Below are positions 24,419 to 64,000 of a stretch of DNA of 64,000 nt, in pieces. The first letter of the stretch is position 1. Every line of letters begins with the position of its first letter. The notes beneath the pieces are model-generated. The model made no database searches. It was not told where the DNA came from and worked only from the letters and a program-made list of their open reading frames with translations. Both the position numbers and the translations under genes were made by a program. The stretch comes from Paramacrobiotus metropolitanus. Lineage: Eukaryota > Tardigrada > Eutardigrada > Parachela > Macrobiotidae. The stretch spans positions 186,001 through 250,000 of the forward strand of contig NW_026570304.1 of assembly GCF_019649055.1 (NCBI RefSeq), in the 5' to 3' direction.

Positions 24419-26364
24419 GGCTATTCATATGCTTTCTTCCGATCAACTGGCTACAGACCCAGTGCGACCTAAACGTCTTCTCGAGGAATATCTTCCTTTG
24501 TGCGACATTGAGTATGACGAGCGTGAATCACTTGTTCTTCTCCCGCCAGCCATGAAATATTGCCCTTTGAAGTGCAAGTATCGGAACGGTTCCCGAGGAG
24601 CTCCTCGACTTTTGTTCCCAACTCATAAGCCGCCAACAAAGGCCGCGGTGTTTGAAGCAGATGGCACCTCACGAAATGTCGTTGTGATACAGAAAACGTG
24701 CAGAGGATGCCGTTCCATTTTTGAATATGATATGGTTCATATCTACGAGGAGGGGTATCAGTTTTATCCTTATCGTCGGCCGTACCTTCGAATTACTCCC
24801 AACTGCTACTTTTCGCGTCGTTTATGGGAGCACATTGTCAGAACGATGTAAGCAATACATACATCTATTTTCTTCTTTAGCAATCATTGGTTTACGAGAA
24901 CTGAGTTTAAGTCTTTCACAGGGTTAGCGGTCGGTTCACGTTTGAATCGTTTGCCCTTATATGGGAAGCCACTTATGAACAGAAAGGTAACTAAAAATTT
25001 TGGCTGCACCTTTTTTATTTGGGCACGAAAGGCATATGACAGCAAAATCTTTCTAGATTTCGACAGGAAATGGGTGTCAACCGCTTTTTATCGGCATGAA
25101 GTCGAAGAAGAGCTTCGGGACAGAGGTAGCTTAATTGAGACGATATTCCAACAAGCGAACAGCTTTGACGAGGTACTTCCTTATCTGGAGGCATGCCGAT
25201 TGGCAGAGGGGTTTCCACATTGCCACACCGCCCGTTGTGATGAGTATAAGTGCAAATACTTTCTCATTATGGACGGCTTCTGGATGATTTCGTTTCTTCA
25301 TTGTGCAGCCTTAATAGAGGTATTTTGTTCTAAAATTTCCCACTATACACAATTAAGGAAGTTTATGAATTGCAGAATATGATTGCGGGGTTCTCAAGTT
25401 TGTCTCTACCTCCGGTTTGCACTGCCCAGCCCGAGCCTGGTTCCATCTACTGCAAAAAGCATGGCAAAATAAGCCCTGCTGGAGTAAAGGCAACGTTGTC
25501 AGCTACGTTTGCTCAGACCGCTTTCGCTATTCCTGGTGAGACTGCTAAAGATTTTGTAGTAGCGTAGCCTATAAATTTAGACAATCAGTGCTCTATCTTT
25601 CAGAGCTCAAAGGATTACTAGGTGCAATAGACCTATCCAAACCGATGGATGAAACAAACGCAGCAGACGAAGTGGTACCATGCCGAAAAAACCTGGGGGA
25701 ATTTAAAACGAAGAATCCAGATAAAGTTGTTTCTGCACCACGCTCGAGGGGATACTTGGTGGTACACAGCCCTTGCGGACAGATACGATCCCAGTCACCA
25801 ATATATAGGTCAGCTATATCCCATTTACTTTACCGGTTTCAGGGAAGTGACATTATGATGGTATCGTACAGGTCGGAATCACCTTCTCAAACATTTCTGA
25901 TCGCTATTTCGTCGCTATTGGCTCACATCAAGAATTCAAAGATACCACAGGAGGAGTTTGAAAATGTTTTTGTTGTCTACGACAACATGTGCAACCTAAA
26001 TCGTTTGAAAATTGCACAAAAGCCGCTCCCGTTTTCTCCACCTTTTGATAATATGTGGCTGCAAGTGGCTAAAGTAATTGACAAGTTTCACTTGAACAAC
26101 CACACTCGTCCCGAATGCCGTACTGTGTACCACCCACGGCAAATCAAAGAGAAACATCCAACTTTGCAAAAATGTAACACCAGTGCCGCCGAGCAAGGAT
26201 TTTCTTGGTTTCGTCGGTTCGAGGCTGTTCTAAATCACATTCCAAGAAATCGTCAAGTGTTCTACGTCAACAGACTGATTTATCGACGAAATCAGTACTT
26301 GGCCACCGGAAGTTATGCCTGGGATGACGGATCTTGTGTCGACGAAGGAAACGCTACAGTTTAA
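24419..26364 (+). CDS. KDZ-type transposase with CxC5/CxC6-like cysteine clusters
   Basis: Seven plus-strand exons join cleanly across short introns, with borders near 24848/24921, 24985/25057, 25320/25375, 25533/25605 and 25818/25853, and stop at TAA 26,362. The first exon has paired cysteines (YCPLKCKY, KTCRGCRS). The middle has CHTARCDEYKC followed by FLIMDG, then a C...YCKKH cluster. The last exon has VYDNMCNL, VIDKFHLNNHTRPEC and NTSAAEQGFSWFRR. These match the KDZ (Kyakuja-Dileera-Zisupton) RNase H-like transposase plan with CxC5/CxC6 zinc-binding inserts: a DxxC strand, a DxFHxxxHxxC block and an Asn-x-x-x-E block. No stop or frameshift was seen in these exons, so the protein of about 560 residues or more could be intact. 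5' exons may be missing from my model. It probably moves the element bounded by the palindromic iterons. Confidence 0.72.
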
Positions 26365-50290: not shown

Positions 50291-51333
50291 GGCAAGATTA
50301 AACCGCAGTATAACGATTGATTCAGAGACGCAGGAATCCGGGCAGGACACACGACACGGCCCTTCTAGTGGCTCTCTGTTACAGTTACGTGTGTGTGAAT
50401 CGGTATAAATTGGGAAATAGCGCCAACGTGTGTCACTTGCTGCGTAAAAAAAATTTTTTTCTGTTTTGTTGTCTTATGATGGTTTGGGGCCGTTTCGGCC
50501 ATGTTCATATAACTGCCCAAAGGGAGGTAAATTCCGAGCCCACCTTTTGGTGTTTCTCGCGTGGCGTGTAGGAGCAATATCAGCCAATGCGCGTGCTGTC
50601 TGCCGATTACATTTCACAAGCCATACTGTCATGCAAATAGGCTAAATTATTTGGTTATATCTGTAGCCGGTCAACAACAATCAAAATCTAGTAAAAATAC
50701 CGGTCTAATGGTAGATCCAGAATAGATCCACAGACGGAGACAGAAACGGAATCTATCCCGTGGAAGTGAGCAATACGATCTGGATTGCGAACTATTGCGA
50801 AATCACAAAACGTCGCACCGTAAACTGCTGACTTTTAATATTGAAAGTCTGGAGAACAGAAAATCAACAATTGATCGGCGCAGCTCGATCGTAAAACGTA
50901 GAGCCAATTCAACAGCGTGCAACGCTGTGCAGCACGTGCTATGCCGCGCCCACTAACACAACTCAAGCCAATCAGAAGAGACACAACACAGACATGTAAT
51001 CCTAAGGCGTAGCGCCTAGCGCCACTGACGTGAACGCTAGTGATCCCGGTCTCACATGCCTCTGGGGGATGCCGAGCTCCTGTGAGGCTGGACACACTCC
51101 CGAATCCACGAGAAGACGACGGTCGCCGGTGTCTGTGCGTGCTCAAAAACATCAAATTCTCTTAATCCATTTTATCACATCAATTCCGTAAAGGCACAAT
51201 TCCATTTAATACAATGTGAATAAAGAGATCCAATTATAAAAATACTATCAAATCATTAGGAACAGATCAACAGTAACAGATCAACAAAAGTATTAATCAA
51301 ATTGTAGACTAGGATCCTCCATTTCTGACTCGC

Positions 51334-51824
51334 AAAGGTCACAGGTCCTGTCCACCGTTTTCCGCACTTTAATCCATTCCGCTCCGTTGAGCAATTTCGC
51401 GCATCCATAATGCGACTTTCATCACAATCCGCTTTGAGAATCGAGTGCGTATCAAGTACGACTTTAGAAATACTGCTTCATCTTTGGAATATGGTGCGTA
51501 TCAATTGTACGACTTCAAAATGAGATCCAGTAAAGGTCATGGAGGGACGTCAGTAAAGACAAGCGTAGTTCGCTTCCTCCCTAGTAAAGGTCATCCTTTG
51601 TTGAGATGATCCGTTGAAATGTGCGACTCATTTTGGGTTAATGGTCCCAAAGGTCATGCGACTTGAATTCCGATACGGTGACTCTGTTGGGCAATTGATG
51701 ATCCCAAAGGTCATCCCACTCGTCAAAACTTCCATTAAAGGTCATGGAGGGACTTAGCCAATTTTCTGCGGCTTTCAAGCACTTCTTCGCTTGCCTCCCT
51801 GGTAAAATTTGCAGTTTGACCTTT
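51334..51824. promoter_or_regulatory. Cluster of seven AAAGGTCA sites outside the coding block
   Basis: Exact AAAGGTCA on the plus strand at 51334, 51532, 51586, 51649, 51706 and 51737; the next, at 51817, is on the minus strand. The first continues as AAAGGTCACAGGTCC, a near DR1 pair of nuclear-receptor half-sites. The phrase TAAAGGTCATGGAGGGAC occurs twice (51531, 51736). AAAGGTCA is the classical NBRE bound by NR4A/HR38 monomers and overlaps ERR/FTZ-F1 sites. Binding here is an inference. Confidence 0.7.
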
Positions 51825-51861
51825 CCGTCGCACATCCAACTTCAGTATGCCTCGAGCGGCC

Positions 51862-52300
51862 AGAGTGCCGGCAAGTTTACCGTAGCATCTCTGATGGGGC
51901 CGGCTAGTTACCGCATTGAATTTACCCCGTGAAATTTCCACCTTAAGTCTTTTACTCTTGTTCGCCGCTTGTGGCTAACATTAATACGAGAAATCCGGCT
52001 TGATTACCGTAGTTTTCTCGTTTTAATTTCACACTGAATCGCTTAAAGAGTGCCGGCATAGTTTACCGTAACAACTCTAATGAGGCCGGCTAATTGCCGC
52101 ATTAAGTTAACCTCATCAATATTCCACCTGTTGTCTTTCTCTTTTCGCCGCTTGTGGCCCCGTTTCGTATTCAAGAGATCCGGCTTGATTACCGTAGTTT
52201 CTCTTGTGCATTTATAACACTGAGTCGCTTAGAGAGAGGCCGGCTAACTGCCGTAGCAACTCCCTTGGGGCCGGCTTCATAGACCGAATCAATTTCAACC
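51862..52300. repeat. About 185-bp tandem repeat, two and a half copies
   Basis: Units start at 51,862, 52,047 and 52,231 (AGAGTGCCGGC...TTTACCGTA). Each has CCGGCTTGATTACCGTAGTTT, a CGCCGCTTGTGGC box and GGGGCCGGCT/GAGGCCGGCT. Divergence is about 15-25 percent. It lies just past the last ORF of the retroelement, where an LTR or 3' untranslated region would sit. Confidence 0.85.
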
Positions 52301-52403
52301 CCAATAGATATTCCACATGATTTCTTTTAGGCAATTCTGTGCTATAAACGCTGCAAACAACAAATACACAAATACAGTTAATGTTAACATGTCACGTGTC
52401 ACG

Positions 52404-52412
52404 CCTTTTATA
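52404..52412 (-). promoter_or_regulatory. TATA box, possible LTR start
   Basis: The minus strand reads TATAAAAGG just after the purine-rich AAAAGATGAAAATGG and TGTTG. A polypurine run followed by TG is the layout at the border of an internal region and a 3' LTR. The opposite LTR is outside the window, so the border is unproved. Confidence 0.4.
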
Positions 52413-52478
52413 CAACACCATTTTCATCTTTTGTGACGTACCGACAAATGCCGTAGACGTCCTTTTAATAGTGTGATC

Positions 52479-52905
52479 CTAACGATCAGCACTATTCCAT
52501 TTCATTTGAATCGCCCTCGCCATCTCTCGGCGGGCGTTTCTTAGCGCTTTCCGGTTGGTTTCGATCGGAAGTTCGGTCAACTGGTTCCGTCGAGTCAACT
52601 TCCATGACCTTTGCCGGATCAACTTCGCGCTGGCCACGACCTTTCCTTGGCGACTGCGCTTAACCGCCTCAAGTCGATGGCGTGCGTCATTTTCTTCCAG
52701 TCGCAGCCTTCGGTTATCAGGGTCATCTTCCGCCAATCGACGCTGCACGTCGGCGAGATTATCCCGCAGCTGTTGGTTTCGGATGCCGCGTCGTCCCATC
52801 TGGTTAGGCGCACGGTCTGGGCGACGGTCACTTTTCTTCACTAAGAATTCATCAATGTAAGTTTCGATTCCGTCCACCGGTTCGACGTAGTCACTTCCAG
52901 AGAAT
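52479..52905 (-). CDS. Retroelement ORF, charged coiled-coil-like
   Basis: The frame is open from just after TAA near 52,906 to stop 52,479, about 141 residues with no obvious ATG start. Arg/Asp/Glu/Leu-rich text (DNLADVQRRLAEDDPDNRRL) suggests helix or coiled coil. One AAAGGTCA on the coding strand (52605). Function unknown; probably a piece of a longer broken gene. Confidence 0.5.
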
Positions 52906-53092
52906 CTTTGATCTTATTAATCCTTTCTTCAACTTGGGATGCGTGGCGCTGTGTCAAGTTGCCCTTTTCCATTCGTGTCTTACACTTTTCAGCGCCTTGC
53001 GAGCCGTATGCGCTATGCTGATATGTTCCATCGGTTGTCCCAATTTAGCGACATGAGCTCGGAAGAACGGTGGAATGTCGTCCTTCATGGTA

Positions 53093-53482
53093 TTAGACAC
53101 CAATTGATTCTGTGTCTCTAATGTGCCAGGTCTGCAGCAAAGACCTTTTGCCCCATCCTTTTGCGGCATAGTCCTTAGGATCCACCTGTAGTCCTATCAA
53201 TGCCCTTGCTGCAAGCAACTTGAAGGCTGGATTCACGTGTCGTAAAACAAACTGAGCCACGTATTCTTGTCGTTCGGGATAGTCTCTGTAGTAGAACTGT
53301 GTCATCCCGATTGGGTCAGTTGTATCCAGCGGTACATCCAATAAACTCAAATCCACCAAACTGTGTAGCCCATTCCGTCGGATAGGGAGATAACAGTCCC
53401 GTACTGAATCGCGGTGGATGAATAACCGACGAAAAGTCCTTGTTCCACTCCTGTTTAATCTCTCTCGCATAACCCGAGTCAA
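53093..53482 (-). CDS. Retroelement ORF, unrecognised
   Basis: Frame of 129 residues (text HSLVDLSLLDVPLD, FVLRHVNPAFKLLAARALIG). The following frame (53,169-52,954, QLVSNTMKDDIPPFFRAHVA) seems to continue it after a phase change near 53,120-53,160, so a frameshift probably splits one longer gene. No domain recognised. Confidence 0.5.
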   Translation of the reverse strand: MTRVMRERLNRSGTRTFRRLFIHRDSVRDCYLPIRRNGLHSLVDLSLLDVPLDTTDPIGMTQFYYRDYPERQEYVAQFVLRHVNPAFKLLAARALIGLQVDPKDYAAKGWGKRSLLQTWHIRDTESIGV

Positions 53483-53693
53483 GTGAAATGGCTCAACTGT
53501 CTCAGAATTGTGCCAATTTTGTTGGCTTCAACCGAATCCGACTCAAGTCCAAAGTATCGACAAATTTCGACCGTTTGCTCATCAATATCAGTCGTATTAT
53601 ATTCCATGTCGATGGTATCCGGTTGTCGGTTATCGAATCTGGAGTTCTGTCGCTGTTCAGCTTGGCGACGATTATCCGGTTCACGATGACCTT

Positions 53694-54116
53694 CTAGTTC
53701 ACGTCGCTCTCTGACTCAGGCTGCGACGGTTCATTACTCGCCGGTTGTTCCGGTTGAAGGTCACTATCCAGAATTACATTTCGTCGATGAGTTACATTCT
53801 CTTGAGAGGCGGTTTCCATAACTGAACTAGTTCCTTCCATCGCATCGTCTTCTTGTACGACGCTCACAATTGGATCCACGACGTGAACCATTGACTCCAC
53901 CCGCTGGTACTTTGGGGGTGAATCTTCCCGTTCAGTGCTTGATGACCTTTTGCTTGCGCCCGAGTCAAAGGTCGCATAAAATGCGGCTCTCTGTTGCCAT
54001 TTCTTATCCTGTAGGTCGGGCGTTCGATTTCGCGTATGTTCACGTCTTTTATCCCATGACCTTTCGGGTGTTGACATCCTGACGTTACGATTCCGGAATG
54101 CAACTCCCATCGGCAC
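53694..54116 (-). CDS. Retroelement ORF, polar
   Basis: Frame of 140 residues, Ser/Glu/Arg-rich (REHTRNRTPDLQDKKWQQRA, PEQPASNEPSQPESES). Overlaps the upstream frame (54,375-54,085) by about 30 bases in another phase, so a frame change may link them. Two coding-strand AAAGGTCA sites (53943, 54057). Function unknown. Confidence 0.5.
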   Translation of the reverse strand: MPMGVAFRNRNVRMSTPERSWDKRREHTRNRTPDLQDKKWQQRAAFYATFDSGASKRSSSTEREDSPPKYQRVESMVHVVDPIVSVVQEDDAMEGTSSVMETASQENVTHRRNVILDSDLQPEQPASNEPSQPESESDVN

Positions 54117-54375
54117 CTGATGCCCTTGTTTTCAGGCTCTGTACGGAACGTCTCCGCACGTTTTCACGTCCTCTCGTCGCCGCCAAAATCTTTGCCGTAT
54201 CGATTTTCCTTTGAATACTCGTTTCTGTAACTTCGTCTCCATGGCGCACCCATCCTCTTCCGCCACGGTAATCTCTATCATGAGAACGTTCGCGTGACCT
54301 TTCGTTGCGGTAGTCACGTGTCCTTTCACGAGTGTTCGCGTGACCTTTCTCTCTGTCGTTCAGAAGTTCGCTCAT
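54085..54375 (-). CDS. Retroelement ORF, RS/RD-rich
   Basis: 96 residues, starting at an ATG whose ATGA overlaps the stop of the previous frame (54,372). The Arg-rich text RDYRNERSRERSHDRDYRGG looks like a splicing RS domain. However, part of it is created by AAAGGTCACGCG occurring three times within 108 bases (54295, 54341, 54393). RNA binding through Arg-rich stretches is plausible; the SR-protein resemblance may be a by-product of the DNA motif. Confidence 0.5.
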   Translation of the reverse strand: MSELLNDREKGHANTRERTRDYRNERSRERSHDRDYRGGRGWVRHGDEVTETSIQRKIDTAKILAATRGRENVRRRSVQSLKTRASGADGSCIPES

Positions 54376-54695
54376 ATTCGTGAATGTCCGCGTGACCTTT
54401 CTCTATGCGGGGGCGACCGTGGTCGTATAAAGCCTTCGTCCCGTTTAAAATTTCTGAATGCTTGCAGCACATCGCTTTCGGTTCGGCGAGATTTACGTAG
54501 GTCATCCATACGTCTTTCGACTTCCTTCTTTATGTAGGGTGCCGGCGCGAACCCGTCTTGAAGTCGTTTCTTCTCCCGCAACAGCATTTTGAATACCTCG
54601 TCTGACATGGCAGCTGGATCTTTCGTTAACGTTTCAATTTGTATGATAAGTGACTGTCGTACAAGTTGCATTTCGTCTTCGTTAAGGCTGGCCAT
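54372..54695 (-). CDS. Retroelement ORF, helical
   Basis: 107 residues from ATG 54,695 (MASLNEDEMQLVRQSL), helical and charged, ending in an Arg-rich tail (RSPPHRERSRGHSR). It starts shortly past the preceding ORF in another phase. Its stop shares bases with the next ATG (ATGA), the arrangement used for coupled termination-reinitiation in some retroelements. Function unknown. Confidence 0.5.
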   Translation of the reverse strand: MASLNEDEMQLVRQSLIIQIETLTKDPAAMSDEVFKMLLREKKRLQDGFAPAPYIKKEVERRMDDLRKSRRTESDVLQAFRNFKRDEGFIRPRSPPHRERSRGHSRI

Positions 54696-54709
54696 GCCCG
54701 TAGGTGCAA

Positions 54710-55216
54710 CTAAACTCGATGTGCTGGGCAGTATTCTCGTGCAGCCTGTTCACTTGCTCTCTTATTTTCCGCATTAATTTTCGCGCGGATTTCGTCTTCC
54801 ATCTGCTGAGCTCGCATCTTCGCTTGGTCTTCTTCAAATTTCTTCCGATACGCGTCTGTCTGTGGACACTTCAACGGCTCCAAGGTGTCATCCCAGCCAG
54901 GTTCATTGTTCCGGATCGCTTCTCGATAACGATCTTCGAATAGCATTCGCTCTTCTACTGGGATGCTGCCGTAATTCCTTGCACTTATCAGGTTACGGAA
55001 GACGTCCAGGTTCCCACGTTTAGCTTCCGAGACTCCAACAAGTGAGACAATATGTGGGTCGTCCAGCTTGTGAATGCAAGTGTAGCAAGGGAATTTCTTA
55101 TCAACCTTTTTGTTGTTCCTTAAGCAGTCCGGACACTTCGGATTATAGCCCGTAAACTGATCGATGTCTGCCGCCGTTCCTGAACGTTTAGGAGTGGCTT
55201 GACCTTTTTGTGCCAT
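54710..55216 (-). CDS. Retroelement ORF with CxxC-CxxC zinc-ribbon-like pair
   Basis: 168 residues from ATG 55,216 (MAQKGQATPKRSG); an earlier TTG at 55,246 is unlikely as start. CPDC and CYTC pairs 14 residues apart could bind one zinc. The C-terminal third is a predicted charged helix (KFEEDQAKMRAQQMEDEIRA). The AAAGGTCA at 55,200 codes for its residues 4-6 (Lys-Gly-Gln). It might be the nucleic-acid-binding structural protein of the element, but no CCHC knuckle is present. Confidence 0.5.
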   Translation of the reverse strand: MAQKGQATPKRSGTAADIDQFTGYNPKCPDCLRNNKKVDKKFPCYTCIHKLDDPHIVSLVGVSEAKRGNLDVFRNLISARNYGSIPVEERMLFEDRYREAIRNNEPGWDDTLEPLKCPQTDAYRKKFEEDQAKMRAQQMEDEIRAKINAENKRASEQAAREYCPAHRV

Positions 55217-55551
55217 CTTTCTCTTCAATCTGCAATTATAAAACAATCCATCATAGTAACCTTTTCGACGTTAATCCTTTCCATTCCTATCCATGTTAAG
55301 GCTTTCTATCATTTTTACGCCTATTCCGTTACTGAGCTGAGACTTTCCTAGCTCCTGCTGCCTTTTCTATCACTGTAACGTGGTGACCTTTCTCACGTTA
55401 TCAGCACTCTGACTACTGTGACCTTTTCTATTAGTCCTATTGCTGCTTTCAGTTGACCTTTCATAACACTTTTCTCTTTTCGTTTTGAACTGTTTATGCT
55501 TTTTCTGTAATATGCAGGGTTCATTACTCGCTGCATATTACACTCGATAAT
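55217..55551. other. Noncoding gap with three AAAGGTCA sites and a hairpin
   Basis: No frame. Coding-strand AAAGGTCA at 55384, 55419 and 55454, spaced exactly 35 bases apart. An 11-bp perfect stem, GTAATATGCAG at 55507 with CTGCATATTAC at 55531, has a 13-base loop. Confidence 0.65.
55507..55541. terminator. 11-bp stem-loop between retroelement ORFs
   Basis: GTAATATGCAG and CTGCATATTAC are exact reverse complements around a 13-base loop. Role unknown: an RNA structure in the retroelement transcript is possible, and the terminator label is only the closest category. Confidence 0.3.
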
Positions 55552-55815
55552 TCACTCGGATTCTTTCGTCGATGGTTTATACGGCTTGAAATCGATTCGG
55601 CCATCTGGCTTAATATGAAGCACTTCGTCCGAGATCAAGGCTTCAACGGCATTCTTAATCCACTCCTTATCGCTTTCAATATTCAACTCTCCCAATTCAT
55701 AATTGACGGCCATGAAGTTCGAAAGGTCATTCCATGACGCTCCATTTGTACCGCCGATGGCGTCCAAAGCCACGTCTGTGATGGCTATCTTCCAGGCCTC
55801 CAATTCCATTTTCAA
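55552..55815 (-). CDS. H15-like winged-helix ORF
   Basis: 87 residues as listed from a TTG; the frame is open further upstream to TAA near 55,910 (about 115 residues, YNKDNKVVYYLPKQGQ). The pattern WKIAITDVALDAI, GASWNDLSNFMAVNY, IKNAVEALISDEVLHI and GRIDFKP follows the helix 1-helix 2-helix 3-wing layout of linker-histone H15 domains (AI..L....G.S...I..Y...NY...IK.AL..L...G.L.....G...). It lacks the basic tail of histone H1 here, but may have been a DNA-binding domain of the larger broken protein upstream. One opposite-strand AAAGGTCA (55722). Confidence 0.5.
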   Translation of the reverse strand: MKMELEAWKIAITDVALDAIGGTNGASWNDLSNFMAVNYELGELNIESDKEWIKNAVEALISDEVLHIKPDGRIDFKPYKPSTKESE

Positions 55816-55970
55816 TCTGGGCGTTCGTTCCTGACCCTGTTTCGGAAGGTAGTAAACGACTTTGTTATCCTTATTGTATTTACATCCCAGCTTTCTTTCT
55901 TATATGCTCGTTTCAGAGCTCGTTCAGTCATGTTATGACCTTCCGTTTGAATTTATTGCCACTTGTCTCT

Positions 55971-58900
55971 TCAGGTCTGTACCAAGCATCTCTTTTTCTC
56001 GGATGATCTGGGCGCGTTCTGGACTTCGTTCCATGTACGATTATTCACGTCCAATGCCGGCCCTAACATGTAATCTGTAGCCTCCTTTGCCGGTGTACCG
56101 CTACTTTTCTGGGAGGATGTCGAGTCCGTTGGGTCAGCCGTCGCTGTCTCGTCGATCCTCAGCTTTGCCAGTGATCCTGATGATGACCCCGCCGATTTTG
56201 GTTCGGCTGTCTTCTTCTCCTCCTGTGGCAAAGTCTCTTGACCTTTTAAATCGCCGACCGACTTCGATCGTTCCTTCTCAAAGACGTCCTTTAATGGTAT
56301 GAACAGTGATTTAGAAACACCTGGCGCGCCGAATCCGCTTCATTTCTGCTGCCGCTTCTTTTCCATCGGGAGCATGACCTTTTCTTTCTCCCGTTTGTCT
56401 GAAGTCTCATGACCTTTCGATTGGACTTCTGCGGTAGTTCCAGATGTCTTTTGACCTTTCGACTGTTCATCTTTTTCTGTCGCAGGTCCAGAAGGAGCCG
56501 TTATTGTAGTATCGTCATCACTTCCCGATTCCGAGTCCATTGGGCCTTTTGTCTTCGATGAAACTGTGACCTTTTCCATATCCTGACTGTCGGACATATT
56601 ACAGTGGATCTGTCTTTCCGGTGGTATTAGACCAACTCTCGTGTATCGGATCGGGTGTCCTTTATTTGCGTTTGTTGTAGCAAGGATATTCTGTTTAATC
56701 AATTTTGGCAATACACGCTCGGTTGCCGTGTCGATCTCCTTTATCATCCCGTTCCCGTCATTCCAAACTGCGTTAATATATTGGCTAATCCGATGGCTTG
56801 TTGATCCTAACGGGCTTGTCATTCCTGCGATTGCCCTTTCTACTCGCATTGGGACCGCTTCATTCGGAGTTGTCAGCGCTTTATCCGAACTGGCTGGTCT
56901 GAACAACTTGGCCTCATACGAGAAACTCGGGTGCTTCTGTATAAGTTTTCCTGCGTTCCGCGCGAATTCCAATACGACGTCGAACTTTTGTTTAGTGAAG
57001 CTACGATGTTGTTTCTTCAAATACGTCTTCAGGCCTGCTTTAAATTTGGATGTCACCGATGCTGTTCTTATTCGTGTGAAATTCTTTTCAGTTCCGTTAT
57101 ACGCTTTGGTTACTTCATCGACCGTGTTCAAATTATCATCATCGGGACCATCAAATTCTTCGTCTGAGGTGAAGTCCAGTTCACTCTCTCCATCTGGTTC
57201 AGTGTAATTAACCGTCGCTAATGCGTCGATTTTCGTGACTGTCTTGCCCTTTCCTTTGGTTTTAACGGGTTCGCTCTTTGCTTTTTTTTCTTTATCCAGA
57301 GCTTCCGCTAAGCTTCTTGGTTCAGTGGTTCTTGATCGTGTCGTTTTCGAGTCCGTGTGTGACCTCGCACTAACCGTCGAAGTGCTTGGAAGGCTCACTT
57401 CCGATGCCTCCGATTCACGCGACGTCTCCCGTTTCGCTTTTTCGCGAATCTGTTTGTCCTTGCGCTCCTTTGGCGTGGATGCGGAAATGACAATAGGGAC
57501 AATTTGTTTCACTGCTATGACCTTTCCTTTGGGTTTTGATGGCTCTGCTGTAGCCGATTGAATAACTTTCTTTGACTTCGTAGGTGTCGATGACCTTTCT
57601 TCAACTTCGCCAACTGACTCGTCCAATATCTCAACATCATGAGACGCTGGTTCGTCTCTTTTTTTTGATCCTTCCCTTTTCTTCTTCCCGGTGCTTGTGC
57701 TATCGCTTTCATCACCGCTCTTTTTCATCTTATCTTCTTCCTCCTGTCGTTTCTTCTTCTCTTCTTCCTCCCGTCGTTTCTTGAGAAAATCGCCTTTCTT
57801 AACCTTGTCACGGTTCATGGCCTCTTCCAATCTGGGCGCTTTCCTCGGTTTGACTTCTGAGGGCTTCACTTTTGAGGGCTTTTTATGCTTGTCGGCCGTT
57901 TCTTCATCTGAGCCTTCTTCCTCAGGTGGGTCCTCGTCTTCCGACTCTGGTTCGTCGTCACCAGGTGGATTACAATGGGCGCAGTTTGGTTCATCACACT
58001 GAAGGTGCTCATGACTTCCTTGGGCAATCTCAAGTACTCTTTGTAGCGAACGTCTGGCCCCTCCTGTTTCAGTTATATTTGCCGACGTGCCCTGCGCCTC
58101 TTCCGTCTCTCCGGCTCCGCCTTCTTGTGCCGGGGGATGAATTTCCAAGTGTCTTGTCTCTTTCGGAGATCCCTGTGAGGCGACCTCCCACAAAGGGTTC
58201 TTCTTAGCGTCGTAAAATACCGTTTTGTACGTTCCATCTTCCATTCGTCTTGTGAGTCGGAAATGTGCTCCATCGATCTCCGCTCGATGCCGCATCATGC
58301 TGATGAGTGTGCTTGCTTGAACCACGGCATCTTTTCGGTCGCTTTCAGGTATCAGATCCCATAACTGGTCAATAGCTGCCTGATTCGCATTTCGGGCGCT
58401 CTCTTCTGATACATCCCATGGGGCATATGGGACCTAGTCTCCTGTTATTGGGTCAACTATCACCGCAGTTATGGTTTCCGTAGCTTCTCCATTGTCAGCG
58501 AAAAGTCTGAGGGTGACCTTTCTGCTTGTCGCCTCTGTATACCTCGGGACCGACTCATAATCATCTGACGATCGTTTCTTCGGATCAGGATCCGCCGTCG
58601 GTTTTGAGCGAGTTCTCTCTTTGATCAACAGTTTGCCGTCCGTTGTGTATGTATATGGCAAGTGGTCATCATCTGTGCCCACTTTGATACGGATCCATGC
58701 ATCTTCTTCGGTTGCAACTTTAGATACCACGTGCTTCATCATCTGAACGATAACTCTTGGGTTATGACGTTCTTCTGGGGGAATAAACTGTAGCGCCTCA
58801 TTGACTACCGTTTTTGACTCTTTCCCAATGGCATCCTTAACTGACCTATCCGCGAGGGGATTATACGAGTCGATCTCTTTGTTCGTTTTCTTATCGACTA

Positions 58901-60458
58901 TTCGTGCAGTGACCTTTCGTTCTTTATGATCTTCCCCAGTGTACTTGGCCGTGAAACTTCTACACTTCGGGAATCGAATCTGACCTTCTGTTCCAGCTGG
59001 TGTGGGTGGCGCGCTCTTTCTACCCACTGGAACTGGGCCTTGTGGCTTTGCCGGCTCTGCTGGTGTTGCTCTGCTTTCTGTGGGCTTCTTTGTTCGCTGC
59101 CCTTTCTTATCAGTTTCTTTTGGGCTTGTCGTCGGTGATCTCACTCTTTTTCCACTCTTCGTGGTGCCACTGGATGGTTCTGTGACCGAACTAGTACGTC
59201 CACGTCCTGATCCTGCAACCGAGCTGGCCCGTGACCTTTCTGCTCGTTCCGTTAATACGGCATCAATCTTCTGCTTTGTGGCCAAAAGGTCCTCGTCCGT
59301 CATTTCATCAACCGGGGCATCTTTTTCAGCTCTGGGTTTAGATGGTCCCGCGACGCTGGTAGGATGTATCTGTCTTGTTTCCGGGAACACTTTAAGATAC
59401 CTAAGGATCTTTTCGACGATCGAAGGCCATGGCCTACCATTTAGCGACGGGTGGTATTGCCACATCGACGCAATTTTATCGCGTATTCCTGCGCTCTTTT
59501 CGATCAGTTTTGTCTTTTCCTTCAGGGCGATATGACATGGTTTAATAACGGCTTCCAGGCTGATTAACTTTCCGTACCATGCGTGCTCGTCTTCAACTCG
59601 CATGTGAATTCTATAAAGTTCGCGGCATTTCCGATTAAATTCTCGGATAGCTTCCAAGTCGTTTTCCGTCAGTTTGTCCTCCTTATTCGGAATCATATTT
59701 AAGCTTGCGTCGTCCTCTCTCAAATCCAAAGGAAGCTTCGGTGCGTATGCATGTATTGACGGTTCACCTGGAGGCGTAAGCCGTAAACCATCTGGTCCAG
59801 TCTCGTCCAAGTTTGGACCCAGTGACGGTAGAATGCCTCTCGGTCGCCTTCCTCCTCTGTGTGGTGAATTACGATAAGGGCGCTGCGCTCCAAGTTGCTG
59901 CGGTGTTCTCATGCGAGGCGCTCCGATATCCGACAGTGACAAACCTCCCGTCTCCGGAAAAGGCGGTAATATCGGAGATGACCTTTGTGACTGTACTGGG
60001 GTCACTAGCATTCCGCTGAATCCCCCATGTCCCGTGAATCGATTCGGTGGAGTCTGTTGTGGTGGCGGCATCAGCATTCCTGCCGGTCCCATTATCACCT
60101 GCGATGGTCCCGCCGGTGGGGTATACGATCATGGATACGGTTGGTAAGGGGCGCCCGTTGCTTGTCCCGAATACTGGGTTCCGGCAGGTGAGCCGTGGTG
60201 CACCCAGTTAACCGTGTCCTGATAATTCGTCTGCTGTCCTGGATCGTGGTACACGTAATACCCCTGTCCGCCGTAGTAACCTCCTTGGGTTGTTCCAGGT
60301 TCGTTCTGAGCCGTTCCCACTGATGACGTCGATTCTTCACCATATAAAGTGTCATAGCCGTATTCACCTTCCATTCTTATAGGTGTTGATGCTTTTAGTG
60401 GGTTTCCAATACTTTCCGAGTCTGAATTATCCGAGTTTTGTCGTTCCAATCTGTCCAT
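55971..60458 (-). pseudogene. 4.5-kb post-integrase ORF interrupted by three stops
   Basis: One reading frame runs from ATG 60,458 to TGA 55,971 (1,496 codons). Internal stops are TGA at 60,131-60,129, TAG at 58,436-58,434 and TGA at 56,342-56,340; the text between stops is in one phase throughout. The N-terminus is Gly/Tyr/Gln-rich and prion-like (GGYYGGQGYYVYHDPGQQ), then Pro-rich. A folded segment follows at about residues 210-300 (HAWYGKLISLEAVIKPCHIA, SMWQYHPSLNGRPW), then long Lys/Glu/Ser-rich disordered stretches and CDEPNCAHC. It is downstream of integrase, where gypsy-type elements may carry env, but no membrane segment or signal peptide is visible, and no gag motif. Near the 3' end the phase seems to shift toward the H15-like ORF. 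Eleven coding-strand AAAGGTCA sites lie in it. Either a decayed gene or, less likely, one using stop readthrough. Confidence 0.65.
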
Positions 60459-60576
60459 TAACTGTGCAAAAACAAAAAACAATAAAGGTTAACTTTTTGC
60501 ACAGTGGTGACCTTTCTTTTTGCCTTCCCAACTCCTATTTTTAATTAAGTGTGACCCCTTATTTATGTCTATGTGG
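60459..60576. other. Gap between pol and the downstream ORF
   Basis: 118 bases without a gene; holds one AAAGGTCA on the coding strand (60508-60515). Confidence 0.6.
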
Positions 60577-63432
60577 TTATTTGTTCTCTCGTCCTTTAGT
60601 TATCCGATCAAGGAGTTCTTTCTCGGCTGCATCCTCAGGTTCGCCTTTTTGAGTTAGCAGTTCCGTAGGAGTTGGTTTCTTCTTCTTCTGTTTGACTTTC
60701 CGCTCGTTAATTGCTTTCGCTATATCACGGCCCAATTGTTCGGCTTTTGATTTGACCGCTTCTATCTCCTCTTCTCTCTTTTTTATGAGTTCATTCTCAT
60801 AACCGGTAACAGTGCGTGGTTCGAAAAAATTCGGGTCACGCTCTGACATCTCAGCGTCCGTACGCTGTTTCGAAAGGTCATCCTTATCTTCGGTAGCAGT
60901 GCGTGGTTCGAAAAAGGATTGTTGCAGGTCCTTTTTGGAGGTACGCTCTGGAACTTTGGAGGTCGGTTCGTTGTCTTGTTCCAGTGACCTTTCTGCCAAA
61001 TTACCAGCCTCTGCGTTCAACTTGAATGTGACTGCTGTTTCGAAATCCTTATCCTCCTTCTTCTTTCTTCCTCTTTTCTTTGTAGATTTGTTTTCTTTTT
61101 CCATTTCAGGTAGCGGAGGTGGTTCGAAAAAAGGTTCTTTTTGAGGAGTATGCTCTGTGCCCTTATCCTCTTTTTCCTTTTCAAGTAGCAGAGGTGGTTC
61201 GAAAAATTGATTGGTACCATTTTTCGAAGCTAGCTCGGCTTCTTCCGTTTCTTTTTCGTTCAACGTTCGTTGCGAATCTTTCTCGTCGGGTAATGGCGGA
61301 TGCCACGGCTTTAACCGATCAATGGAAACCACTTTTAGATCCGCTTCCTTCTTCGGATTCTGCTCGATGACCTCCGCTTCGTTTGTTCGCGGGAAGCTAA
61401 GAATTTTCCACACTTTATCGTACTTCGACTTGAAATCCGACTGGTTTTCTTTCTTCCCCTGTTTAGTATCTTTTGGAAGTCGTATAAGTACCAAATCGCC
61501 CACTTTGAAATTCGGCTCCGATTTCTTCTTATTATAAATTTCCGCATTTTTCTCATATGCGTCTTTGATGTTACATCTCGCCACTTCTTCGGCAAAGGTC
61601 AAGTTCTTTTTCATGGTCTCCACCCATTCGTCTGGAGTTCCGTAATCATCGGGTATATTCGTTTTTGTGACCACATCCTCCGGCATTGTCATTTCTCTGC
61701 CGTGTAGCATATAGTATGCTGAATATCCAGTTGTGGCGTGCACGACTCTGTTCATTGCCGAAATAACATATGGAAGGTACTTATTGAACTTTCTTTCGTT
61801 TCCCGCTTTCAGGTACTGTGCCAGGCCATCCGCAATCGTTTGCATCTGTCTTTCAACTTGGCCTTGACCTTCCGGATGATACGCCGTTCCAAATGTGTGT
61901 TTAATCTTAAACACATTGGTGACCTTTGCCAATACTTCAGCTGTAAAGTGTCGTCCGCGATCCGTATGTAGGATGTGCGGTGCCCCGTGTACCAATATCA
62001 CGTGCTTCACGAACACTTTAGCGAATTCTTTGGCCGTTGCCGTCTTCATTGGTACCGCAATCACATATTTCGTCAGTTGATCAATAAACACCGCTATGTA
62101 TTTGTATCCGTGTTTCTTCGTTGGTAACAGCGGTCCTTTCAGATCAGCGTACACTCGGAAGAACGGATGTCCGACTTTAATCTCTTGTAGTTTTCCCGGT
62201 GGGCATTTTCTTGGTGTCTTGCGGAACTGGCAACCTTGGCAGGCGAGTATATAATTCTTCACATCTGTACTCATCCTGTCCCAGTAGTATCGGAGTCTTA
62301 TCGCTGACAATGTCTTTTCAAATCCCAAGTGACCTGCTGCTTTCTCGTCGTGCAATGCGTGGATTATCGATCTTCGCATTGACAACGGTACCACGTATGA
62401 CCTTTCAAGTCTCCCATTTTTGTCCTTTACCCGGTATAATATACCGTTCCATAACTGGTAGTGCACTTCAAATTTCGATCTTGTTTCCGCGTCTGGTAGG
62501 TGTTCCAATTCGTCTATGATCATTGCCAGATGGGGATCTTTCAACTGTTTATTCCGCAATTGCAAGTTGGAATCATCAACCTCTTCTTCGTCACCTTGCA
62601 GGTTGACAATGCGAACTGTCGCCGTACTGAGTTCATTCCAATCCTTGATGACCTTGCATCGTGGTAACGGTTTATACCGCTTTTTCGCCTGTTTTGGGAA
62701 TCTCAGCAGTTTGATTGGGCATTCGTTCAACGCTTGTGCCACTTTGTCCGTTTCCCAAAGGTCATCTCTATTCTCCGCTCTATCATCAAGTCCCGTGACC
62801 TTTCCATTCTGCATTTGAGATTCCGCGTCAATTCCGGTGACCTTTAAGTCACTAACGGCGGGCAACCAGCTTCTCACTCGGTTCACTTTTGCTTCGTTTT
62901 CAGCCGACTCGTTCGCCGTAGCTGAGGTGACCTTTAATCGTTTCTCCCTCTGTTCCACCATCTGCAGGAACAGCTGTCCAACTTCAATTGCCGGTTCCTT
63001 CGTATCAAACTCCTTCTTGTAATCCTCGAAATTCGGAATCTCATCAAATTCTTCTTCGTGACACGTCGGACCTTCAATTGGCGCTCTTGATAACGCGTCC
63101 GCGTTGTCACAATATTTTCCCGGTTTGTATTCGATTTTAAATTGGTGGCCTTGTAGTGCCATTGCCCATCTTGTTAAGCGTGGGTTCATTCCAACTTTAT
63201 TCGTTTCTGACCTTAGCAAGTTGGTCAGCGCCTGATGGTCCGTCCTTACGGTGAACTCGGCATAATCGATGTACGGCTTGAATTTCCTGACAGCGAACAC
63301 TACTGCCAGACATTCCCATTCTGTTACACCGTAATTCTTCTCAGCTCCATGTAGAACACGACTGGCGTACGCGATCGGATGTCCATCTTGTGACAGCACA
63401 GCTCCAATTCCTTCTTTACTTGCGTCGCATTC
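60577..63432 (-). CDS. pol: Ty3/gypsy pol, 3' part: RNase H, integrase, FFEP-repeat tail
   Basis: 940 residues from the first GTG at 63,399; the frame is open to a break at about 63,433. The RNase H start (VIECDAS just upstream, then IAYASRVLHGAEKNYGVTEWE, RTDHQAL) covers about residues 1-110. Integrase has its HHCC zinc site (HDEKAAGHLG...CQGC) at about 350-395. Its catalytic core has Asp at about 418 (YADLKGP), Asp at about 476 (HTDRGRHF) and Glu at about 512 (GQVERQM) with the D-35-E spacing intact. After it comes GDLVLIRLP, typical of the C-terminal domain, then a 250-residue Lys/Glu-rich tail with four FFEP(P/R) motifs at about 730, 757, 826 and 858. No chromodomain seen. Nine AAAGGTCA sites lie in this ORF in two codon phases and both orientations. 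Role: cDNA synthesis and insertion of the element. Confidence 0.93.
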   Translation of the reverse strand, partial: ECDASKEGIGAVLSQDGHPIAYASRVLHGAEKNYGVTEWECLAVVFAVRKFKPYIDYAEFTVRTDHQALTNLLRSETNKVGMNPRLTRWAMALQGHQFKIEYKPGKYCDNADALSRAPIEGPTCHEEEFDEIPNFEDYKKEFDTKEPAIEVGQLFLQMVEQREKRLKVTSATANESAENEAKVNRVRSWLPAVSDLKVTGIDAESQMQNGKVTGLDDRAENRDDLWETDKVAQALNECPIKLLRFPKQAKKRYKPLPRCKVIKDWNELSTATVRIVNLQGDEEEVDDSNLQLRNKQLKDPHLAMIIDELEHLPDAETRSKFEVHYQLWNGILYRVKDKNGRLERSYVVPLSMRRSIIHALHDEKAAGHLGFEKTLSAIRLRYYWDRMSTDVKNYILACQGCQFRKTPRKCPPGKLQEIKVGHPFFRVYADLKGPLLPTKKHGYKYIAVFIDQLTKYVIAVPMKTATAKEFAKVFVKHVILVHGAPHILHTDRGRHFTAEVLAKVTNVFKIKHTFGTAYHPEGQGQVERQMQTIADGLAQYLKAGNERKFNKYLPYVISAMNRVVHATTGYSAYYMLHGREMTMPEDVVTKTNIPDDYGTPDEWVETMKKNLTFAEEVARCNIKDAYEKNAEIYNKKKSEPNFKVGDLVLIRLPKDTKQGKKENQSDFKSKYDKVWKILSFPRTNEAEVIEQNPKKEADLKVVSIDRLKPWHPPLPDEKDSQRTLNEKETEEAELASKNGTNQFFEPPLLLEKEKEDKGTEHTPQKEPFFEPPPLPEMEKENKSTKKRGRKKKEDKDFETAVTFKLNAEAGNLAERSLEQDNEPTSKVPERTSKKDLQQSFFEPRTATEDKDDLSKQRTDAEMSERDPNFFEPRTVTGYENELIKKREEEIEAVKSKAEQLGRDIAKAINERKVKQKKKKPTPTELLTQKGEPEDAAEKELLDRITKGRENK

Positions 63433-63434
63433 GA

Positions 63435-64000
63435 TTACGGTCGGTTTTGCGGGTCAAACTTTGCCAGTACTGGACCTTCACATAACAACTGTTTCAAACT
63501 GTTGAACTCATCTTCATGTACCTTCGTCCAGTCCTTTTTCACGTGCTTGTCTTGTCTCAGCAACTCGTATAGGTGGCAGGTCTTCTGTGCATATCCCATT
63601 ATGAACTTGCGGTAATAGTTCGCCAGTCCAAGGAATGACCTTAATTGCCTTTCTGTCTGAGGCCGTTTAAAATCTGAGACCGCGGTGACCTTTTCCGGAT
63701 CCATGCGAATTCCGTCTTCACTGAGTATGTGACCCAGGAATCCCATTTGTCTCATTCCGAATTCACATTTCGTTGGCTTTATTGTGAATCCCGCTTCGAC
63801 CAGGCTCATTAGGACGTTTCTCAAATTCTGCATGAAAATTTCCCAAGTTTTTCCAGCGAAGATAACGTCATCAATGTACCCGAAAACGCAACCCTTTCTT
63901 TTCGCTTTTGAGAGTACTTTGTCCATGCACAACTGGAATGTTGCTGGTCCGTTGCACACTCCGAATGGCATTCGTTTAAACCGGTACATTCCATCTTGCG
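63435..64000 (-). pseudogene. pol: Ty3/gypsy reverse transcriptase, partial, ends in a frameshift
   Basis: Continues past the right edge of the window (frame open at 64,000). It holds RT motifs FKRMPFGVCNGPATFQ, the catalytic GYIDDV (YxDD class, about 63,878-63,861), GFTIKPTKCEFG, FLGHILSEDGI and the thumb FLGLANYYRKFI. The frame closes at TAA 63,435 after KFDPQNRP, exactly where the family runs on into RNase H. The next residues are found one phase over in the ORF that follows. So a small indel at about 63,433-63,440 splits pol in this copy. A programmed frameshift between RT and RNase H would be unprecedented; decay is more likely. Confidence 0.93.

Follow-up and report, generated by a model that had tools for sequence, protein, structure and literature searches.

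The 64,000-nucleotide window analysed here comes from the tardigrade Paramacrobiotus metropolitanus (contig C84), and it raises two questions: why a single eight-base word, AAAGGTCA (TGACCTTT on the opposite strand), recurs so often towards its end, and what reads that word. The sequence-only reading had placed 40 exact octamers in the last part of the window and about seven in the first 51.3 kb; all 40 positions were exact, and 7 octamers were counted in bases 1-51333. It had also assigned the 40 to one retroelement saturated with the word. This is upheld, with a larger element: 24.6 kb with at least 86 octamers, of which 61 are sense and 25 antisense and which are spaced by a median of 162 nt. 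The count is a lower bound because C84:258401-259700 lay outside the sequence read.

The octamers belong to a young LTR retrotransposon of the Ty3/Gypsy type in P. metropolitanus (Table 1). The Pfam families on its minus strand follow the Ty3/Gypsy order (RVT_1, RT_RNaseH, Integrase_H2C2, rve); upstream of pol, inspection by eye showed a DTGA motif of protease type and, in a gag-like frame, a CCHC knuckle (L071); and the best protein relative, 85% identical, also comes from P. metropolitanus. Aligned over 360 columns, the 5' and 3' LTRs agreed in 352, the differences being a single substitution and a 7-nt gap; CCGG adjoined each of them on its outer side, as a short target duplication would; the near-identical LTRs and the CCGG flanks fix the span of the element and indicate a recent insertion. 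The 3' boundary of the family coincided with this span: similarity dropped at 50689-50706 in 28 of the 29 other loci (in two of them through a contig end), the 29th being cut by the end of its own contig. Two assignments were abandoned: an element without LTRs, suggested when a search with the terminal 557 nt (40 of 353 candidates scored) returned no 5' LTR, was overturned by the sequence of the 5' side; and 51334-51744 was no longer taken as part of an LTR once the 3' LTR had been mapped.

Table 1 Features of the octamer-bearing element. Positions refer to the window, except those preceded by C84, which refer to the contig.
Feature	Position	Strand	Remarks
Complete element	C84:236704-261309	minus	24.6 kb
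Element part within the window	50704..64000	minus	remainder past window end
3' LTR	50704..51056	minus	no octamers
5' LTR	C84:260950-261309		no octamers
Antisense octamer run	51334..51744	plus	6 octamers in 411 nt, inward of 3' LTR
Octamers in coding and non-coding DNA	51817..63693	minus	30 sense, 4 antisense
186-nt tandem repeat	51862..52244		about 2 copies; no octamers
186-aa open frame	54710..55270	minus	no Pfam family; 1 octamer
697-aa open frame after pol	56340..58433	minus	no Pfam family; 6 octamers
564-aa open frame after pol	58434..60128	minus	no Pfam family; 4 octamers
RNase H and integrase (pol)	60577..63453	minus	6 sense and 3 antisense octamers
Reverse transcriptase part of pol	63435..63998	minus	leaves window; 1 octamer

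The three frames that follow pol, and the L070 frame, gave no Pfam match at E up to 1, and the L069 frame only matches below the curated cut-offs (DUF2935, DUF1818, PI_PP_I). The three homologues found for the 564-aa frame were all from P. metropolitanus. This frame and the 697-aa frame share one reading frame, with a single stop between them (58434-58436); a public P. metropolitanus protein (P0122) spans the matching junction, so copies of the element without that stop exist. By eye, a similar strand-helix-strand module of no Pfam family seems to be present twice, near the end of the 564-aa frame and at the start of the 697-aa frame, and a short FFEPR-type peptide, rich in proline and glutamate, recurred in several element frames (L070, L071). 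The 186-nt tandem repeat separates the antisense octamer run from the coding part.

Composition and chance were rejected as the cause of the octamer excess by three kinds of control. Dinucleotide-preserving shuffles of the whole window (n = 100) gave a mean of 2.83 octamers and a maximum of 8, against the 47 observed. Markov models of order 1 and order 2, built on the sense strand of the element in 51817-64000 with the octamer sites masked, predicted 0.36-0.41 sense and 0.10-0.13 antisense octamers, against 30 and 4 observed. Shuffling synonymous codons within 7,773 nt of open frames (n = 2,000) gave a mean of 1.5 and a maximum of 7 in the sense orientation (18 observed) and a mean of 0.13 and a maximum of 2 in the antisense orientation (3 observed), the observed counts exceeding the maxima in both. 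In agreement with the sequence-only reading, no unrelated 8-mer was equally enriched in 51334-63693 (the commonest one not overlapping the motif, GAAGAAGA, occurred 11 times), and the other copies of the family bear the word as well: 60 loci retrieved by DNA similarity, the window's own two among them, contained 7-36 octamers apiece (767 in total, against 11 reversed words). Five other copies (L019, L020, L032, L035 and L038) carried 20-27 octamers in their last 1.4-1.6 kb, downstream of pol, and on the 5' side of the C84 element 8 antisense octamers were packed within 271 nt inward of the LTR. Over all the sequence of the host genome (169.8 Mb searched), the octamer occurred 42,562 times and the reversed word 15,522 times. 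No enrichment was found outside the element in window positions 1-50703 (7 octamers, 8 reversed control words), where an open frame at 25549-26364 presumably resembles a KDZ-type transposase. An origin of the octamers in a repeated peptide was also rejected, because the 21 of the 40 window octamers that fall in open frames occupy three codon phases and both strands.

The octamer is under selection as DNA, including within protein-coding stretches. Conservation was tested at 18 of the 86 sites, ten in or just after pol and eight in the 3' region, against copies retrieved by genome searches (candidates scored: 40 of 318 for pol, 40 of 209 for the 3' region and 40 of 457 for the 5' region). Thirty loci each were taken from the pol and 3' searches; removal of the window's own loci (L009 and L039) left 29 copies 82-96% identical in the pol query and 29 copies 92-97% identical in the 3' query. 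Copies unaligned at a site were left out of the count for that site, hence the unequal denominators below; gaps were scored as changes in the intact-octamer and per-base counts, and were excluded from the site mapping of array regions and from the third-codon-position and column tests. In or just after pol, 264 of 283 comparisons showed the word unaltered, whereas other octamers were unaltered in 55%; in the 3' region the figures were 220 of 231 and 67%. At third codon positions of pol, 6 of 776 comparisons differed inside octamers and 4,792 of 26,680 outside. Such pooled comparisons are not independent, the copies being related, and the column test is the more careful one: 4 of 27 third-position columns varied inside octamers against 644 of 931 outside (p = 1.3e-8), and codon positions 1 and 2 alone gave no significant column difference in pol. 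Non-coding columns of the 3' region behaved likewise: 9 of 64 varied inside octamers against 393 of 1,493 outside (p = 0.028), and none of the 64 had changed in three or more copies, against 169 of the 1,493 (p = 0.0008).

Per-base change was 0.4-1.6% within the octamer, 2.1% at the next base and 8.2% at the preceding base; positions -5 and -4 before the octamer were also low (2.1% and 1.4%). Some sites were weaker, 4 of the 18 tested octamers ranking only between the 23rd and 32nd percentiles of 8-base windows. In the array regions the octamer bases differed by 0-3.4% and the spacers by 4.0-11.7% in L019, L020, L035 and L038; against L032 the values were 6.0-11.3% and 18.3-20.4%. Sense and antisense octamers are equally conserved (intact in pol: 183 of 197 sense and 81 of 86 antisense comparisons; intact in the 3' region: 56 of 57 sense and 164 of 174 antisense, the latter being the 51334..51744 run). 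The simplest reading of this equality is recognition of the word on double-stranded DNA.

The conserved block consists of AAAGGTCA followed by any base except G, the base before it being free. In the C84 element the next base at the 86 sites was C in 48, T in 21, A in 17 and G in none, and G followed in about 1% of 142 distinct octamer contexts; genome-wide, AAAGGTCA followed by G occurred 4,042 times, above its own reversed control (2,427). Words that differ from the octamer by one base were also followed through the copies. Variants of the first base were kept unchanged (CAAGGTCAT in 28 of 29 copies, GAAGGTCAA in 29 of 29, TAAGGTCAG in 22 of 29) and variants of the core were mostly changed (AAAGGACA unchanged in 1 of 29, AAAGTTCA in 5 of 29). 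On the few sites available, this is what an AGGTCA half-site that favours a 5' A would show; five other one-mismatch words were unchanged in 15 of 23, 25 of 28, 22 of 28, 24 of 28 and 28 of 29 copies, the last one lying in the LTR. The 9-mer AAAGGTCAG, avoided in the retroelement, is repeated eight times every 90-91 nt at C1:2537724-2538368, apparently a separate tandem array.

The octamer is identical to the NBRE, AAAGGTCA, which NR4A receptors bind as monomers (PMC4777543). A genome search with the NR4A DNA-binding domain gave 37 matches. At C45 a host DNA-binding domain is split over two exons (one with RTVQKGSKYVC...), and its best match is NR4A: the pieces are 86% identical over residues 1-29 and 73% over residues 22-70; four NR4A chains matched the second exon with 70-76 bits, and RXR, the next in rank, with 61. 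Judged by similarity, a DNA-binding domain of NR4A type is thus encoded by the host. The 1.2 kb of sequence from C45 did not show the C-terminal extension, with which the receptor recognises the 5' A. The earlier proposal of an NBRE, the site of NR4A/HR38, is thus borne out for the exact word, its best fit and a matching host domain, while binding by such a receptor stays a prediction.

Our best explanation is that the internal DNA of the element, coding and non-coding, offers many landing sites to a single sequence-specific protein and so forms a platform for it. This protein would recognise, on double-stranded DNA, AAAGGTCA with A, C or T as the next base and would most likely be a host nuclear receptor of the NR4A/HR38 kind, bound as a monomer; we give this predicted combination an even chance of being right. 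Binding along the body could keep integrated copies in open chromatin and have them transcribed wherever the receptor is active. The mobile landing platform of the sequence-only reading stands as far as the dense, conserved word is concerned; receptor binding and any gain from it are what we infer. Of the alternative roles offered with it, integration marking found no support, and neither did packaging, which is disfavoured because it would act on RNA and antisense octamers are as conserved as sense ones. An enhancer of the LTR promoter was rejected as the main role because both LTRs are free of octamers. The octamer-free LTRs, the usual place of a promoter enhancer, also count against our best explanation, as do the unenriched remainder of the window, the four weaker sites among those tested, the low change at positions -5 and -4, the lack of a column difference at codon positions 1 and 2, the retention of other one-mismatch words, the genome-wide excess of the word followed by G, and the C-terminal extension not found in the 1.2 kb from C45.

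The same DNA platform could instead be read by a protein that the element itself encodes, directed against silencing or used to mark the element's own DNA. The model for this would be the plant VANC/VANDAL system, which is the closest analogue of the array, although the tardigrade element is not a member of it. In Arabidopsis, a dense short motif recruits a sequence-specific anti-silencing protein; this motif, YAGTATTAY, has 9 bases and one orientation, belongs to one transposon family and is rare in others, and its density, not the single sites, counts for marking (PMC5735166). The likeness lies in a dense, family-specific short motif, which in the tardigrade is common also to a distant related element, and VANC21 in particular reads a motif of likewise 9 bases, dense and mostly in one orientation (PMC5735166); within the window the octamer is confined to the element, which has several open frames without known domains. 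The differences are substantial: VANDALs are plant DNA transposons (PMC5735166) and the tardigrade element is an animal LTR retrotransposon; the VANDAL motif is mainly non-coding, whereas the octamer is also coding and occurs in both orientations; and the VANDAL reader is element-encoded with demonstrated binding, whereas no DNA-binding domain was recognised in the element frames searched (Pfam, E up to 1). The only fold model obtained, from AlphaFold, was unusable (mean pLDDT 36.6), and the octamer is identical to a known host-receptor site. We consider an element-encoded reader unlikely.

Another host protein (ERR, FTZ-F1, a further nuclear receptor or an unrelated factor) might also read the platform, and the 37 genome matches imply that other receptors exist in the host. 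ERR and FTZ-F1 sites have the form TCAAGGTCA. They fit the array less well than the NR4A site, since the first base of the octamer is nearly always A and the base before it is free, and a reader of this sort appears distinctly doubtful to us. Selection could alternatively act on RNA, with AAAGGUCA as a packaging, stability or small-RNA target site; AAAGGTC followed by A looks like a seed site for a small RNA, and sense octamers far outnumber antisense ones in 51817-63693. Yet composition alone would favour the sense orientation by about 3-4 to 1 in 51817-64000, an antisense octamer run stands in the flank beside each LTR, and the equal conservation of antisense octamers is again difficult to accommodate, so that this possibility is very improbable. 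That the word has no function, having spread by tandem duplication or chance and been kept by recent common descent, is barely credible, although some octamers do sit within short duplicated units: the spacers diverge while the octamers stay (L019, L020, L032, L035, L038), 86 exact words face 50 one-mismatch words in 22.6 kb of the element, and the third-codon-position test speaks against it in both counts and columns.

A distant related element, on C1, is likewise dense in the octamer. This second octamer cluster (C1:202498-218933) contained 24 forward-strand octamers among the matches listed, and the 3.5 kb read from it contained 20, 10 per strand. Its gag-like frame shows about 30% protein identity to its counterpart in the C84 element (71% DNA identity over 399 nt), and 5 antisense octamers precede this frame, an arrangement similar to that on the 5' side of C84's element. 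The DNA-alignable stretch had one octamer position in common, at which the protein is also similar. From this one relative, octamer density seems to have been kept while the positions changed. It is conceivable, if doubtful, that the retrotransposon has turned its body, coding sequence and all, into a dense receptor-binding array, and that selection keeps the total dose of the array and not the position of single sites: an NR4A-type orphan receptor might then open the 24.6 kb along their length, or escort the long cDNA into the nucleus, and the activity of the element would be tied to the hormonal or stress state of the host.

Precedents for parts of this arrangement exist in other mobile elements. 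The Drosophila gypsy insulator is an internal cluster of Su(Hw) sites for a host DNA-binding protein within a Ty3/Gypsy element; its sites number about a dozen and are confined to a single short non-coding block. The array also resembles the NR5A2 sites of mouse SINE B1 in that a mobile element bears a receptor half-site; SINE B1-type elements are short, non-coding and have few receptor sites per copy, whereas the tardigrade element has 86 sites in an array that overlaps pol. No retroelement precedent for a body-wide array of receptor sites was found in the open-licence papers searched. Like the giant Ty3/Gypsy elements Burro and Ogre, the tardigrade element exceeds 20 kb and has extra open frames of unknown function; unlike them, it has short LTRs (about 355 nt) and a body saturated by one conserved octamer, and the parts of the Burro and Ogre report at hand mention no comparable motif (PMC6431247).

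The exact eight-base word and the nearly fixed third codon positions of pol mean that one run of letters spells both a binding code and a protein code. Should a nuclear receptor prove to be the reader, a transposon family would be linked directly to host signalling in a stress-tolerant animal, and the family would offer a natural system in which to test the effect of motif dose on chromatin. If the reader is instead the element's own, an animal retroelement would have a system of the VANC type.
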